Assembly (NCBI GenBank): GCA_913020155.1
Contig: CAJWBA010000011.1
Location: forward strand, 1 to 52,681
Direction: 5' to 3'
Length of the DNA stretch: 52,681 nt
Source: an uncultured Flavobacteriales bacterium
GTDB taxonomy: Bacteria; Bacteroidota; Bacteroidia; Flavobacteriales; Flavobacteriaceae
Shown: in pieces, positions 12,698 through 16,940 of the stretch
How the letters are laid out: every line of letters begins with the position of its first letter
Numbering within the stretch: the first letter of the stretch is position 1
Program-made: the position numbers and the translations under genes
Notes under the pieces: model-generated
Databases searched by the model: none
Seen by the model: the letters and a program-made list of their open reading frames with translations, nothing else
Told to the model about the DNA's origin: nothing

Positions 12698-13405
12698 TAA
12701 ATTAACTTTTTGAGTTTTTTTTCTTCTTTTACTCGAGGTAACAAATGCCAAAGCAAAACCACTCAATACGGTAATCAAACCGAGGAGTGAAAAAACACGA
12801 AGAATTAGAGTATTGAAATTATCCCTTCCTTCATAATCCATTGTGTGGGTCATTCACAAAAAATCGAACCACTTCTACTGAAGATCTCTGATTTTTTGAA
12901 AACTACCATCCTTCATACTCATATAAGCAATATGATTCCCTTTTCCACTGAGCCAAACCTTGAAAGCCGGAAGGGATTTCCCTCGACATACATAATGATT
13001 TGAAACAGAGTAGATACGTTCGATTTTCGTAATAGAATACAAATCAAGCACATTGCCTCCTATAACTTCGGCAGCTTATTTTTTTGAAATAAAGTCAAGT
13101 TTGTTTCCCGTTTTCGTATGAAACAAAAAATAGTTGTTGATCCAGAAATAGGGGTGACTACCAATGGATTTTAGCTCCAATGTTTCAATAGAAAATTCAG
13201 ATCTATTCTCAATTGAATCGATGGCAATTAAAGAATCAAAAGTCTTTTTTTTAGACTTTTGATATAATGATCTCCGTGAATTTCATCGAGATTGGTCCAG
13301 CTAAAGTAAAGCCCCGATAGGGTCTAGAATAAAAATTGAATCCCGATAAAAAACACCCAGAAAGCGATGTGCTTTTCTGAACTTATTAATTACATGAAAG
13401 TTCAT
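12581..13405 (-). pseudogene. PepSY-associated membrane protein gene, wrecked by frameshifts and nonsense codons
   Basis: The N-terminus reads NKFRKAHRFLG. In a shifted frame it continues FIGIQFLF-stop-TLSGLYFSW and TNLDEIHGDHY, a typical PepSY_TM membrane-helix start. After another shift at an A8 run it continues SLIAIDSIENRSEFSIE and NYFLFHTKTGNKLDF. The final part, HTMDYEGRDNFN plus a last helix, closes the family pattern. TAG at 13324-13326 and TGA at 12854-12856 replace expected Trp (TGG) codons. TAA at 13076-13078 and TAG at 12875-12877 are further stops. These proteins often accompany iron-siderophore uptake. The exact 3' end is uncertain. Confidence 0.7.
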
Positions 13406-13411
13406 AAACAT

Positions 13412-13834
13412 TTATTTTTTAAGTAAGACTTTGACGCCCTCATAAAACAAAACTCCTACTGGACCCATCATAAAAGTAGCCAGTAACGGCAGTACAATAA
13501 AAAGGTGTTTGATTTGTTTTTGTTTAGCTTCTCTTAGAATCCAGCAACCAACCCAAAAGTCAAAGGCAAGATAGTGAAGCCAACCAGCAGCGATAAGTTC
13601 AGGAGTGCTGTTTTCGTATAAAGCCATAATACCTTCTAGTGATGTAAAATCTACTCTTCCAATACCCCCATTTACAAAGATGAAGTAGAGATAAAAAAGA
13701 CTCAATACAAGTGGTACATAGGGTCGTTCAGAGATGAGCATAGTAAACTTCCATTTTGGCGCTAAAAGGAGTAAGCCCCAAGCTACTAGAATATTGGTGT
13801 TGCAGATTGTAAATAACATTTCAGTAGTTGTCAT
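13412..13834 (-). CDS. ABA4-like membrane protein (DUF4281)
   Basis: This 140-residue, four-helix protein matches the ABA4-like family: FTICNTNILVAWGLLLLAPKW at the start (split here between helix and loop), SLEGIMALYENS in the middle, AGWLHYLAFDFWVG as the hallmark motif and FMMGPVGVLFY near the end. The plant member is needed for neoxanthin formation. Bacterial members are uncharacterised and are often found near carotenoid or membrane genes. It starts four bases after the oxygenase gene, so both are probably on one transcript, and the PepSY pseudogene follows six bases later. Confidence 0.75.
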   Translation of the reverse strand: MTTTEMLFTICNTNILVAWGLLLLAPKWKFTMLISERPYVPLVLSLFYLYFIFVNGGIGRVDFTSLEGIMALYENSTPELIAAGWLHYLAFDFWVGCWILREAKQKQIKHLFIVLPLLATFMMGPVGVLFYEGVKVLLKK

Positions 13835-13838
13835 TGTT

Positions 13839-14780
13839 TTATTTTTTGAAGAGTCCTAATTCAATTAATCTTTGATTTAAAAAAGCGCCAGCTGTTATAT
13901 CTTCATATTTTTTTGGTTTTTTATCCGAAAAGCAGTTTGGCAAACAGTTCAGCGACATTTCTGCTTCTGGATGCATAAAGAAGGGAATGGAATAGCGAGA
14001 ACTGCTCCAAGAGAATTTTGGAGGATTGACCACTTGGTGCAGCGTTGATTTAAGTTTATTATTGGTTAGCCTCGACATCATATCGCCCATATTAATAATG
14101 AGCTCATTGGGTTCAGCAATAGCATCAATCCAATCTCCTTGATTGGTCATCACTTGTAATCCCTTTCCTTGAGCACCCATCAACAAAGTAATTAGGTTGA
14201 TATCCCCGTGAGCAGAAGCCCGGACAGCATTCTTCGGTTCTTCAAGGATTGGGGGATAATGGATTGCCCTGAGAATAGAGTTCCCATTGGAGGTGTATGA
14301 ATCAAAAAACTGTTCATCCAATTCGAGATGAAGAGCAATTGCTCGCAACACATGTAGTGCAGTTTTTTCCAAAAGTTTGTAGGTTTCTTTACCTAGTTCA
14401 TTGAATTTTGGAAGTTCATTTACAGTTATGTTTTCAGGGTATTTTTTTATTGTAGATTTTTCGTATTGACCAAAATGCCAAAACTCTTTGAGGTCTCCCT
14501 CCTTTTTGTTTTTGGCGTGTTCTTTTCCAAAAGAGGTGTATCCTCGTTGACCTCCACCCCCTTCTATTTCGTAGGATTTTTTTTGCTCTACCCCCAGATT
14601 AAAAAAGCTTTTGATTTCCAAATACAGGTCATTCATGAGTTTAGGTGAAAGAAAATGACCTTTTAGTGCAACAAAACCAATCTCTTCAAAAGCGGCACCC
14701 AATTCAGACACGAATTGTATTTTTAGTTTGAGATCAGAACTTAGAAAATGAGATAAATCTACTTTTGGAATGTGTTGCAC
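13839..14780 (-). CDS. 2-oxoglutarate/Fe(II)-dependent oxygenase, isopenicillin N synthase-like
   Basis: This 313-residue protein has the N-terminal DIOX_N region (about residues 3-110, including EIGFVALKGH and QRGYTSFG) and the catalytic jelly roll (about 160-290). The iron ligands are H191 and D193 in SAHGDINL and H248 in STLHQVV. R262 and S264 in SRYSIPFF bind 2-oxoglutarate. Bacterial relatives hydroxylate or desaturate small molecules, and the substrate here is unknown. It begins an operon with the ABA4-like gene and the PepSY remnant. A small RNA-like unit with its own terminator lies just upstream. Confidence 0.85.
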   Translation of the reverse strand: MQHIPKVDLSHFLSSDLKLKIQFVSELGAAFEEIGFVALKGHFLSPKLMNDLYLEIKSFFNLGVEQKKSYEIEGGGGQRGYTSFGKEHAKNKKEGDLKEFWHFGQYEKSTIKKYPENITVNELPKFNELGKETYKLLEKTALHVLRAIALHLELDEQFFDSYTSNGNSILRAIHYPPILEEPKNAVRASAHGDINLITLLMGAQGKGLQVMTNQGDWIDAIAEPNELIINMGDMMSRLTNNKLKSTLHQVVNPPKFSWSSSRYSIPFFMHPEAEMSLNCLPNCFSDKKPKKYEDITAGAFLNQRLIELGLFKK

Positions 14781-14825
14781 AGAGAATAGAATTAGAATTG
14801 AAAAATAAGGATTAAAAGTAAAACT

Positions 14826-14851
14826 AAAAAAAGCAGATCCATCGACCTGCT
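14826..14851 (-). terminator. Intrinsic terminator of the small leader-like transcript
   Basis: On the reverse strand AGCAGGTC pairs with GATCTGCT around a GATG loop and is followed by seven Ts. The stop codon of the small ORF lies eight bases before the stem. An A-run on the other side could make it act in both directions. Confidence 0.85.
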
Positions 14852-14858
14852 TTTGTTT

Positions 14859-14939
14859 TTATAAAAAAGGAATGGCATAAAACTGAAAGCTCAAAGGCAT
14901 CAGCAGCCGATTTCTCTTCAAATAATTATTATACGACAT
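14859..14939 (-). CDS. 26-residue small protein or leader peptide with a strong Shine-Dalgarno sequence
   Basis: The ORF starts MSYNNYLKRNRLL and ends FQFYAIPFL. It is basic in the first half and hydrophobic at the end. AAAGGAGG lies six bases before the ATG, an almost perfect anti-SD match. This is unusual because Bacteroidota ribosomes normally hide the anti-SD and genes here lack such sites. The ORF sits between its own promoter (15002-15030) and terminator (14826-14851), about 80 bases before the oxygenase gene. I do not recognise the peptide. It may be a small protein, or a leader peptide controlling the terminator before the oxygenase gene. Confidence 0.55.
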   Translation of the reverse strand: MSYNNYLKRNRLLMPLSFQFYAIPFL

Positions 14940-14973
14940 ACGACACCTCCTTTCTGCATTTAGTTCGACTTTG

Positions 14974-14987
14974 CTATTGTCATAGCA
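14974..14987 (-). ncRNA. Short RNA hairpin in the leader of the small ORF
   Basis: On the reverse strand GCTAT-GACA-ATAGC forms a perfect five-pair hairpin between the predicted transcription start and the Shine-Dalgarno sequence. It suggests a structured leader, but I recognise no known riboswitch class. Confidence 0.4.
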
Positions 14988-15001
14988 TTAACTACTCCAT
15001 C

Positions 15002-15030
15002 CAAAGATAAAAAATAGAATGATTTTCAAA
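15002..15030 (-). promoter_or_regulatory. Bacteroidota-type promoter of the small transcript
   Basis: On the reverse strand TTTG (15030-15027), a 17-base spacer and TATCTTTG (15009-15002) form a full consensus promoter. The predicted start near 14995 gives a transcript of about 170 bases to the terminator. Confidence 0.65.
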
Positions 15031-15032
15031 AA

Positions 15033-16301
15033 CTATTTTACAATCTTTTTGAGGGTCATTCCTTGAACTAAAATAGTAAACAGGACAACGGTGTACGTTA
15101 AAAATAAAATAAGGTTTTTACCTTCTCCAATTTGGTCGGGCAGATTCAAAGCTAGAGCAATACTCAAGCCTCCTCGGAGTCCACCCCAAGTGATGATTAG
15201 AGCAGTGTTTTTTTCAAAAGTCTTGAAAAATGAAAGAAATTTAATTGGAGTCCAAACTCCGATTCCTCTGGAAACAACTACTAAAATTATCGTCATCAGA
15301 GCGATCAAAAGATAATTAGAATCAAAACTTTGAAGTATTGGAATTATCTCTAGCCCAATGAGAATAAATAAAATGGCATTGAGCGTTTCATCTAGTAAAT
15401 GCCAAAATTTATAAACATAATCGCCCATTGCTTTCTGAACACCTTCTTTTTTTTGGTTGACATCAATATTCTGGTTTAAAAATAACCCCATAACAACAAC
15501 TCCCAAGACTCCTGAAAAGTGAAATTGTTTTGATACTATCGATACCAGCAGCACCAACGAAAGTGTTATCAGAACTTCCAGTTCTACGTGGTCATTTTCG
15601 ATGTATTTTACAAGCTTTAGTCCCAAGAAACCGATCAATGCACCAAGCGCAATTCCTCCAACAACTTCAGTTGCAAATAAAGAACCAACACTCCCGGCAT
15701 TTACATTTTCGATGCCTAGTTCTTTGATGTTAAAAAGAGTTAAGAAAATGACAACTCCAATTCCATCATTGAATAAAGATTCTCCCGAGATGCGGGTTTC
15801 AGTAATTACGGATAGGTTCATTTTCTTGACCATTGCAAGCACAGCAATTGGGTCTGTTGGAGCTATTAAGGCTCCAAAAAGCAAACAATCTACATAACTC
15901 AACCCAAGAGTTTTTAGGTTGAAAAAAGGGAGTTCAACCAGCCAATAAAGTCCGGTTCCAACCACAAATGTTGAGAATAAAACACCAAAAGTAGCCAAAA
16001 GAAGAATGGTAACTTTATCCTTTAACAACTCATGGACATTAACACTAATGGCCCCTGCAAAAAGCAAAAAAGGGAGCATGATTTCTATCAATAATATTTC
16101 AAAATCAAAGCTTTTAACAATAGCAGAAACGGAGTCTAAAATTGAAGGGAAAACAAATCCTATGGCTAAAATAAAGAAGGATAACGCTATTGCCAAGATC
16201 ATCAGTCCTATTGTTTGAGGTAACTTTAGGATACGTAAATTAATTATTGAAAAAAAAGAGGCTAACAATAGCAAGACAGTTAATAATTCTAATACTTCCA
16301 T
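15033..16301 (-). CDS. Na+/H+ antiporter, CPA1 (NhaP/NHE) family
   Basis: This 422-residue inner-membrane protein has about 12 helices. It carries the CPA1 hallmarks GALIAPTDPIAVLAMVKKM and GESLFNDGIGVVIF, which contain the Asp residues of the ion site, plus the Arg-bearing WGGLRGGLSIALAL. It exchanges sodium or potassium for protons to keep cytoplasmic pH and salt balance, as expected for a marine bacterium. It lacks a long cytoplasmic regulatory tail, as in short NhaP-type members. It is upstream of the small transcript and probably transcribed alone. All motifs are intact. Confidence 0.88.
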   Translation of the reverse strand: MEVLELLTVLLLLASFFSIINLRILKLPQTIGLMILAIALSFFILAIGFVFPSILDSVSAIVKSFDFEILLIEIMLPFLLFAGAISVNVHELLKDKVTILLLATFGVLFSTFVVGTGLYWLVELPFFNLKTLGLSYVDCLLFGALIAPTDPIAVLAMVKKMNLSVITETRISGESLFNDGIGVVIFLTLFNIKELGIENVNAGSVGSLFATEVVGGIALGALIGFLGLKLVKYIENDHVELEVLITLSLVLLVSIVSKQFHFSGVLGVVVMGLFLNQNIDVNQKKEGVQKAMGDYVYKFWHLLDETLNAILFILIGLEIIPILQSFDSNYLLIALMTIILVVVSRGIGVWTPIKFLSFFKTFEKNTALIITWGGLRGGLSIALALNLPDQIGEGKNLILFLTYTVVLFTILVQGMTLKKIVK

Positions 16302-16346
16302 AGATAAATAGTTTTATCGAATTTACAAATTTGTTTGGATGTTGCC

Positions 16347-16940
16347 TTAATCTTGATTTAATAGTTGCATTTTAGCAATGTATTTACCTACGATATCAAA
16401 TTCCAAATTTACTGCTGTTCCCAATTCAAATTGATGGAAGTTAGTATGCTCGTAGGTATAAGGGATAATTGCTACCGAGAAGTTTGAAACCCCAGAGTCT
16501 ATTACTGTCAAACTTACACCGTTGATGGTAATAGATCCTTTTTCAATGGTCATGTTTTTATTAGCAGTTTTGTACTTAAATTTAAAATACCAACTGCCAT
16601 CTGTTTCTTTAATTTGGGTGCATTTCCCTGTTTGATCAACATGACCTTGTACAATATGTCCATCCAGTCGAGCTCCCAATTTCATAGCGCGCTCCAAATT
16701 AACTTTAGAACCAACACTTAAATCGTTGAGGTTGGTTTTGTCTAAACTCTCTTTTATTGCCGTAACGGTGTATTGATTTTCTTCTATCCCAACAACCGTA
16801 AGGCATACTCCGTTATGAGCAACACTTTGGTCTATTTTCAATTCAGTTGTAAGATCACTCTCCATGGTAATGTGAAGGTTGTTGTTTTCTTGAACTAATT
16901 TTTTTACTTCCCCAAAACCTTCTATGATTCCTGTAAACAT
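16347..16940 (-). CDS. ribE: Riboflavin synthase alpha chain
   Basis: This 197-residue protein opens with MFTGIIEGFGEVKK and consists of two lumazine-binding barrel halves of about 95 residues each. The first contains VNLERAMKLGARLDGHIVQG, and the second contains GSITINGVSLTV. The enzyme dismutates two 6,7-dimethyl-8-ribityllumazine molecules to riboflavin, the last step of the pathway in the cytosol. It is divergent from pdxA with 56 bases between them. Length and motifs match the family. I saw no FMN riboswitch upstream. Confidence 0.95.
   Translation of the reverse strand: MFTGIIEGFGEVKKLVQENNNLHITMESDLTTELKIDQSVAHNGVCLTVVGIEENQYTVTAIKESLDKTNLNDLSVGSKVNLERAMKLGARLDGHIVQGHVDQTGKCTQIKETDGSWYFKFKYKTANKNMTIEKGSITINGVSLTVIDSGVSNFSVAIIPYTYEHTNFHQFELGTAVNLEFDIVGKYIAKMQLLNQD

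Follow-up and report, generated by a model that had tools for sequence, protein, structure and literature searches.

A conserved small gene with an extended Shine–Dalgarno sequence and a predicted pseudoknot across its micro-ORF in small-genome flavobacteria

A small gene of ~170 bases lies complete at positions 15009–14829 on the minus strand of the window (the whole stretch of 52,681 nucleotides analyzed here). Its upstream neighbor encodes a Na+/H+ exchanger (PF00999, 3.9e-58), and its downstream neighbor a 2OG-Fe(II) oxygenase (PF03171, 2.1e-18; PF14226, 2.3e-22). The gene begins with a putative –7 promoter box of the TAnnTTTG type, TATCTTTG (15009–15002), recognized from its sequence and its conserved place in relatives. 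This is followed by a 5΄ hairpin, GCTAT-GACA-ATAGC (14986–14973), an extended Shine–Dalgarno (SD) sequence, AGAAAGGAGGTGT (14943–14955), a micro-ORF of 26 codons with its ATG at 14939 (14859–14939), and an intrinsic terminator with a CGATGG loop (14854–14829). The motif AAAGGAGG, which ends in GGAGG, is separated from the ATG by exactly 6 nt. The original prediction had listed a promoter box, a hairpin, an SD sequence, an ORF and a terminator without stating the strand; all of them were found, on the minus strand.

A blastn search detected the element in 16 of the 18 other genomes of the genus. The remaining two (G010 and G013) yielded no element by blastn or by a covariance model with laxer filters, and in both of them something else follows the exchanger. 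Weak blastn matches in the genus (L018–L022) were short and did not represent the element. With model R1, the element was found at E ≤ 9.1e-8 in 17 of 397 genomes of the family, belonging to 9 of 237 genera, all of them assemblies of 1.3–2.2 Mb. The weaker R1 matches that were assigned a locus, L046–L058, were rejected, since they lack AAAGGAGG before an ATG (in L054 the motif is present but lies inside its terminator). Of other weak model matches, L100–L102 lack AAAGGAGG and L186 and L187 lack CTGTGACAACAG, though L187 has GGAGG; all these loci were taken for terminators or chance matches. Among 38 genomes of genus g156, model R2 recovered the element in 34, and the four misses (56–82% complete) were still negative on re-search. 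In samples of the order and the class (395 genomes each, with stricter filters), only the window's own genome gave a true match. A pattern scan of named genomes, a collection that may omit records close to the window's genome, added one further copy, on MED-G20 contig L060 (1387–1557). A match in SZUA-178 (L059) lacks the rest of the element, a pattern match in a viral contig (L111) lacks a suitably placed ATG and is regarded as a chance match, and blastn against a phage collection gave no match to the element. Lack of conservation in close relatives had been named in advance as one half of what would refute the original prediction; on that half, conservation was found instead. Judged from these genomes, the element is a self-contained conserved gene in small-genome flavobacteria.

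The evidence for a promoter and a terminator comes from this conservation, since the signals in the single sequence are at chance level. A consensus scan of positions 13300–16400 returned 9 sigma-70-like sites compared with 9.6 expected, and 2 terminator-like sites compared with 2.4 expected, so that neither signal alone is above chance. Across the relatives, however, 59 of 60 loci carried a TAnnTTT[GA] box within a 36-nt interval where the element begins, compared with 170 of 2891 control intervals, and in 57 of 60 loci it stood at one place within 2 nt. A TTG at 15029–15027, 17 nt 5΄ of the –7 box, may be the –33 element. The terminator stem was paired in 99.6% of alignment cells, with changes on both sides at 6 of its 9 pairs, and its CGATGG loop was conserved in 58 of 60 loci. 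TAnnTTTG is given as the consensus of the –7 box of Flavobacterium psychrophilum in the relevant passages of a published study (PMC9723704).

We evaluated the SD sequence against the 16S rRNA tail GGAACACCUCCUUUCU, which was legible in 6 of 34 genomes: five belong to the genus and one to g85, and the window's own is not among them. The near-perfect SD sequence of the original prediction was borne out as an exceptionally strong one: 13 nt of the SD sequence in the window are complementary to this tail from relatives, and the predicted duplex energy was –21.9 kcal/mol, compared with –20.1 kcal/mol for rpsU of the same genome (ViennaRNA). Across the 60 loci, the duplex computed in the same way ranged from –14.7 to –22.0 kcal/mol, the contiguous complement measured 9–14 nt in 59 loci (7 nt in one g72 copy), and the distance from AAAGGAGG to the ATG was 6 nt in 45 loci and 5 nt in 15. 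A value of –13 kcal/mol is described, in the pertinent sections of PMC9976891, as the limit characteristic of rpsU SD pairing. All 60 loci lie below this limit, which came from a different program than the one used here.

Such sequences are rare in the window's own genome. In its assembly (1.70 Mb, 80% complete), AGAAAGGAGGT occurs once and the reversed control pattern does not occur, and GAAAGGAGGTG followed by ATG after 3–8 nt occurs at two sites, rpsU and the micro-ORF (control, 0). The latter pattern was present in 83 of 397 genomes of the family, and we inspected 46 of its loci (L139–L184), 16 of which were chosen by hand. They comprised 23 rpsU genes, 1 copy of the element (G014) and 22 other ORFs, many of them very short. 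For example, L180 (G361:C37) carries a 41-residue basic ORF (MAKDSEGRKYNR...) behind GAAAGGAGGTGTAAAATATG, a candidate for an extended-SD small gene besides rpsU; the same 20-nt start string also occurs in G183:C1. L160 and L183 carry ORFs that start behind an extended SD sequence and may be mobile or phage genes that carry signals of a foreign style; we take them to resemble GIY-YIG endonucleases.

The strong SD sequences of rpsU and of the element do not always occur together, because among the 20 element-bearing genomes with an rpsU stretch, 16 had an rpsU SD stronger than –13 kcal/mol and four (G122, G330, G106 and G093) did not. All four retain a strong SD sequence at the micro-ORF. The extended SD of rpsU is lost in L065, L073 and L087 (G122 and G330) and in L081 (G106), and it is weaker in L069 (G093). 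The bS21 proteins of G122, of one G330 copy and of G106 have H where the other bS21 sequences examined have Y54. In addition, the rpsU leaders L076 (G391) and L062 (G366) contain GCCCTCC just 5΄ of the SD sequence, which could fold back onto it.

The 26 codons reported in the original prediction hold for the window copy, but not as the typical size, as this length is shared only with two near relatives. Over the 60 loci, the ORF had 20 codons in 44, 21 in 11, 26 in 3 and 19 in 2, and it ended in TAA in 42, TAG in 15 and TGA in 3. Gaps within the ORF were multiples of three (alignment A4). For codons 2–20, pN/pS was 0.53 in frame compared with 0.77 and 1.39 in the other frames for g156 (24 distinct copies), 0.73 compared with 0.84 and 1.00 for one subclade of the genus, and 0.64 compared with 1.62 and 0.86 for the other two subclades together. 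Values for short stretches ranged from 0.32 to 2.62; codons 2–6 in g156 gave 2.62, and some other stretches also exceeded 1. The in-frame values thus speak modestly for translation, with some confounding by the RNA fold; in codon 2 (Ser or Phe), for example, the middle base covaries with its pairing partner (columns 67:98). Given this weak coding constraint, the peptide sequence may matter little.

The peptides of the window and of two relatives had no match in Pfam, NCBIfam or PHROGs. Profile searches likewise did not identify the micro-ORF product as bS21, and its similarity to the bS21 C-terminal tail was inconsistent. The peptide MSYDNHLRN shares the spacing of Y54-I-Q-H-L-R-D in bS21, and mimicry of this tail was considered and rejected: shuffled bS21 reached the score in 11 to 1239 of 3000 trials, depending on the genome (ten tested), another site scored best in two of the ten, one of 183 chunks of window proteins scored 10.3 compared with the best bS21 score of 10.5, and the L-R codons fall in a stem of the predicted RNA structure (stem 2, below).

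When 17 loci of the genus were folded with RNAalifold, three features emerged: the 5΄ hairpin, the terminator, and a stem that joins the SD/start region to codons 11–16. For 33 loci RNAalifold gave the hairpin and the terminator, with codons 7–10 paired to the segment after the stop codon instead of the SD/start stem. These two stems are compatible as an H-type pseudoknot. Stem 1 joins the 3΄ part of the SD sequence and the spacer (14941–14951) to a strand inside the ORF (14892–14902); both strands were assigned from the alignment fold and from the strand swaps described below. An inner stem joins the G of the start codon and codon 2 (14934–14937) to 14906–14909, a partner assigned from the pairing count over loci, and was paired in 97.9% of cells, 2 of its 4 pairs having changed on both sides. 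Stem 2 joins codons 7–10 (14912–14920) to 14866–14874, which corresponds to the 3΄ UTR in most relatives and lies within the longer ORF of the window copy. It is weak in that copy (–4.7 kcal/mol). Because of its longer ORF and weak stem 2, the window copy is atypical and may be drifting or differently tuned. The 5΄ hairpin was paired in 99.3% of cells over the 60 loci, both partners had changed at 3 of its 5 pairs, and its sequence was conserved in 55 of 60. Testing for covariation, as the original prediction had proposed, thus confirmed the hairpin and also revealed the pseudoknot over part of the SD sequence and the start codon.

We compared the alignment of the 60 loci (59 distinct) with shuffled controls. 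Over 38 base pairs, 91.8% of 2207 cells were paired; 18 pairs showed changes on both sides (shuffled mean, 11.1), 163 cells carried such double changes (50.0), and the covariation score was 0.303 (0.194), and in none of these four measures did any of 500 shuffles reach the observed value. The number of further pair types was 51 compared with 46.8 and was matched by 13 of 500 shuffles. When partners were slid by 1–3 columns, pairing fell to 41–48%. The alignment used (A5) was fitted to a model with stem 1, the hairpin and the terminator but without stem 2, and stem 2 is accordingly the more independent test. Stem 2 alone was paired in 86.5% of cells and had 29 double-change cells compared with 13.1 (0 of 500 shuffles); its both-side-changed pairs were matched by 46 and its further pair types by 174 of 500 shuffles. 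For stem 1 with the inner stem, the corresponding values were 87.7% and 27 compared with 7.5 (0 of 500), with matches in 130 and 131 of 500 shuffles, respectively. Since these shuffles ignore relatedness, we also swapped strands between clades, using the first locus of each of 13 clades and 5000 permutations. Cognate strands paired more strongly than swapped ones in stem 2 (mean –9.57 compared with –6.88 kcal/mol; 1 of 5000 permutations as good) and in stem 1 (–16.52 compared with –14.72 kcal/mol; 8 of 5000). Pairing of the SD sequence with the 3΄ UTR, a possible alternative fold, was weakly cognate (239 of 5000). Within stem 1, GGUGUCU is mostly paired and AGGA is often unpaired, which indicates that the 5΄ half of the SD sequence is less constrained by pairing. 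The single window sequence folds with modest stability (z = –1.88; 6 of 200 shuffles as good).

The SD sequence and start codon are thus sequestered in a covarying structure, as in the leaders of ribosomal protein genes. In Rfam 15, the window matched no family at the gathering threshold (best, L20_leader with 19.9 of 58.7 bits, E = 0.1); L008 reached 21.9 bits with L20_leader (E = 0.034, below threshold), and L033 had nothing better than E = 0.18. The predicted cost of opening the SD sequence, for secondary structure only and with the pseudoknot energy excluded, was 3.8–6.4 kcal/mol as clade means, compared with 3.5–11.2 kcal/mol for rpsU of 10 genomes (the 11.2 kcal/mol being that of G391). 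As these costs lie within the rpsU range, the fold is no demonstrably tighter lock, and a switch, as discussed below, stays a proposal.

The neighboring genes suggest two ways in which the element might belong to another gene. The oxygenase follows directly in 50 of 60 loci, and a leader or attenuator of this gene had been considered in the original prediction. However, the constant association that a cis-acting leader implies was not found: in the other 10 loci the downstream gene varies in identity and strand and includes genes on the opposite strand (some of them, as we read them, glycosyltransferase-like or DUF4281-like), and the conserved terminator hairpin between the two belongs to the element. 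We regard this reading as hardly credible; the varied downstream genes and the fixed promoter box argue for an independent gene. No ribosomal protein gene was recognizable downstream in nine of the ten non-oxygenase loci (L127 excluded). In 56 of 60 loci the exchanger gene immediately precedes the element on the same strand, usually 34–39 nt before the model start, and in the genus members G010 and G013, which lack the element, something else comes after the exchanger, as would suit a 3΄ element of the exchanger gene, functionally linked to it in an ion or pH response. Yet the element has its own promoter box between the two; no exchanger stands upstream of L013 and L138, and another gene does so in L060 (L116, one of the four loci without the exchanger, has only 15 upstream bases); and the exchanger occurs without the element in G010, G013 and G022. 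Because the oxygenase side is syntenic too, plain gene-order conservation may suffice, and a link to the exchanger appears very unlikely.

Two further readings concern an RNA that acts by itself. The RNA itself could be the product: it would act as a decoy, capturing the 16S tail of incomplete 30S subunits, and the ORF would serve solely to clear the ribosome. This would fit a pairing more constrained than the peptide, the very strong SD sequence, and the 3΄ segment TCCTTATCTA (47 of 60 copies), which resembles the 16S tail CCTCCTTTCTA; in L060 the segment is CTCCTTTCTA, which is identical to the tail over 10 nt and one base shorter than TCCTTATCTA. It fits poorly with an ORF kept at 19–21 codons in 57 of 60 loci, with its frame-preserving gaps and with the lower in-frame pN/pS of g156, and we consider a decoy unlikely, though worth bearing in mind. 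Alternatively, a dual-function, trans-acting sRNA might pair with mRNAs through the terminator loop, the 5΄ loop or free segments, the micro-ORF being secondary. Its own promoter box and terminator and the conserved CGATGG loop and hairpin sequence are what such an RNA would show, but TCGAT-type loops also occur in unrelated terminators that the model matched (L048, L057 and L102), so that the loop may be generic; a trans-acting role seems distinctly improbable to us.

The reading we favor, to which we give an even chance, is that the element forms a gene of its own, giving rise to a short structured mRNA that is translated by ribosomes whose anti-SD is exposed, for example those without bS21. 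In the predicted fold, the 3΄ half of the SD sequence, the G of the start codon and codon 2 would pair with codons 11–16, and codons 7–10 with the segment just 3΄ of the stop codon, forming an H-type pseudoknot over the full length of the ORF. Pairing constrains the 5΄ half of the SD sequence, UAGAAAGGA, least, and this half could serve as a landing site, although this segment is itself predicted to be partly paired, at 2.3–4.5 kcal/mol to open (pseudoknot energy excluded). A 30S subunit whose anti-SD tail lies outside the bS21/bS18/bS6 pocket, above all one without bS21, might pair with this site, displace the stem and free the start codon, so that the ORF of ~20 codons would be translated; the pseudoknot would then be opened by the ribosome in the course of translation. 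On this view, ribosomes whose anti-SD is exposed would have two targets, rpsU and the micro-ORF. According to the relevant sections of PMC9976891, Flavobacterium johnsoniae ribosomes without bS21 initiate better on mRNA with an extended SD, and wild-type ribosomes give little product from such mRNA in vitro. By analogy, these results would carry over to the micro-mRNA. The sensing of ribosome composition by the micro-ORF, which the original prediction had raised, is plausible. We further propose, tentatively and with rather less than even confidence, that the element is a natural RNA switch triggered by the exposed 16S 3΄ tail, and that the ~20-residue peptide is made only when 30S subunits with a free anti-SD (e.g. 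without bS21) accumulate. As a guess, the peptide might be a signal or effector produced when 30S subunits are incomplete.

Parts of this arrangement are known from other systems. In the rpsO/S15 and alpha operon/S4 leaders, a pseudoknot forms around the SD sequence and start codon of the mRNA itself, as predicted for the micro-gene; unlike those leaders, the element is not followed by a ribosomal protein gene, and its pseudoknot extends across the complete micro-ORF, with a terminator behind it. Synthetic toehold switches hold the start codon and the SD side in a stem with a landing segment, to which the start-codon stem and the possible landing segment of the micro-mRNA are comparable, although the proposed trigger here would be the ribosome's own 16S tail and displacement of the stem by it is hypothetical. 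A parallel in sequence signals is the autoregulation of rpsU (bS21) in F. johnsoniae, described in sections of PMC9976891, with an extended SD, pairing below –13 kcal/mol where SD sequences are otherwise avoided, and a short transcript of its own, which is also predicted for the micro-gene. Unlike rpsU, the micro-gene does not encode bS21, its ORF has ~20 codons, its SD and start codon lie in a covarying pseudoknot, the spacing from GGAGG to ATG is 6 nt compared with 9 nt in rpsU of the same genome, and its SD is kept where that of rpsU can be absent. Rfp18, a conserved sRNA of the genus Flavobacterium that is reported to affect protease mRNAs, is likewise an independent structured small transcript in Flavobacteriaceae, as the micro-gene is predicted to be; the pertinent part of PMC9723704 mentions no micro-ORF in it.

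No prior report of the element was found in the open-access literature at the level of titles and abstracts. From the present comparison, 60 members of a structured RNA could be aligned; the three tested (window, L008 and L033) lie outside the Rfam 15 families. Bacteroidota ribosomes hide the anti-SD, and a genome scan, as presented in sections of PMC9976891, limited SD-dependent control in Flavobacteriales to rpsU; an unannotated ORF of 20 codons would presumably escape a scan of annotated genes. A second gene, found in at least nine genera and with an SD sequence about as strong as that of rpsU and a predicted fold surrounding it, makes the idea of specialized ribosomes lacking bS21 testable beyond autoregulation. 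If the favored reading is true, the micro-gene would be a second gene under specialized-ribosome control in Flavobacteriales, in which rpsU has been thought to stand alone.
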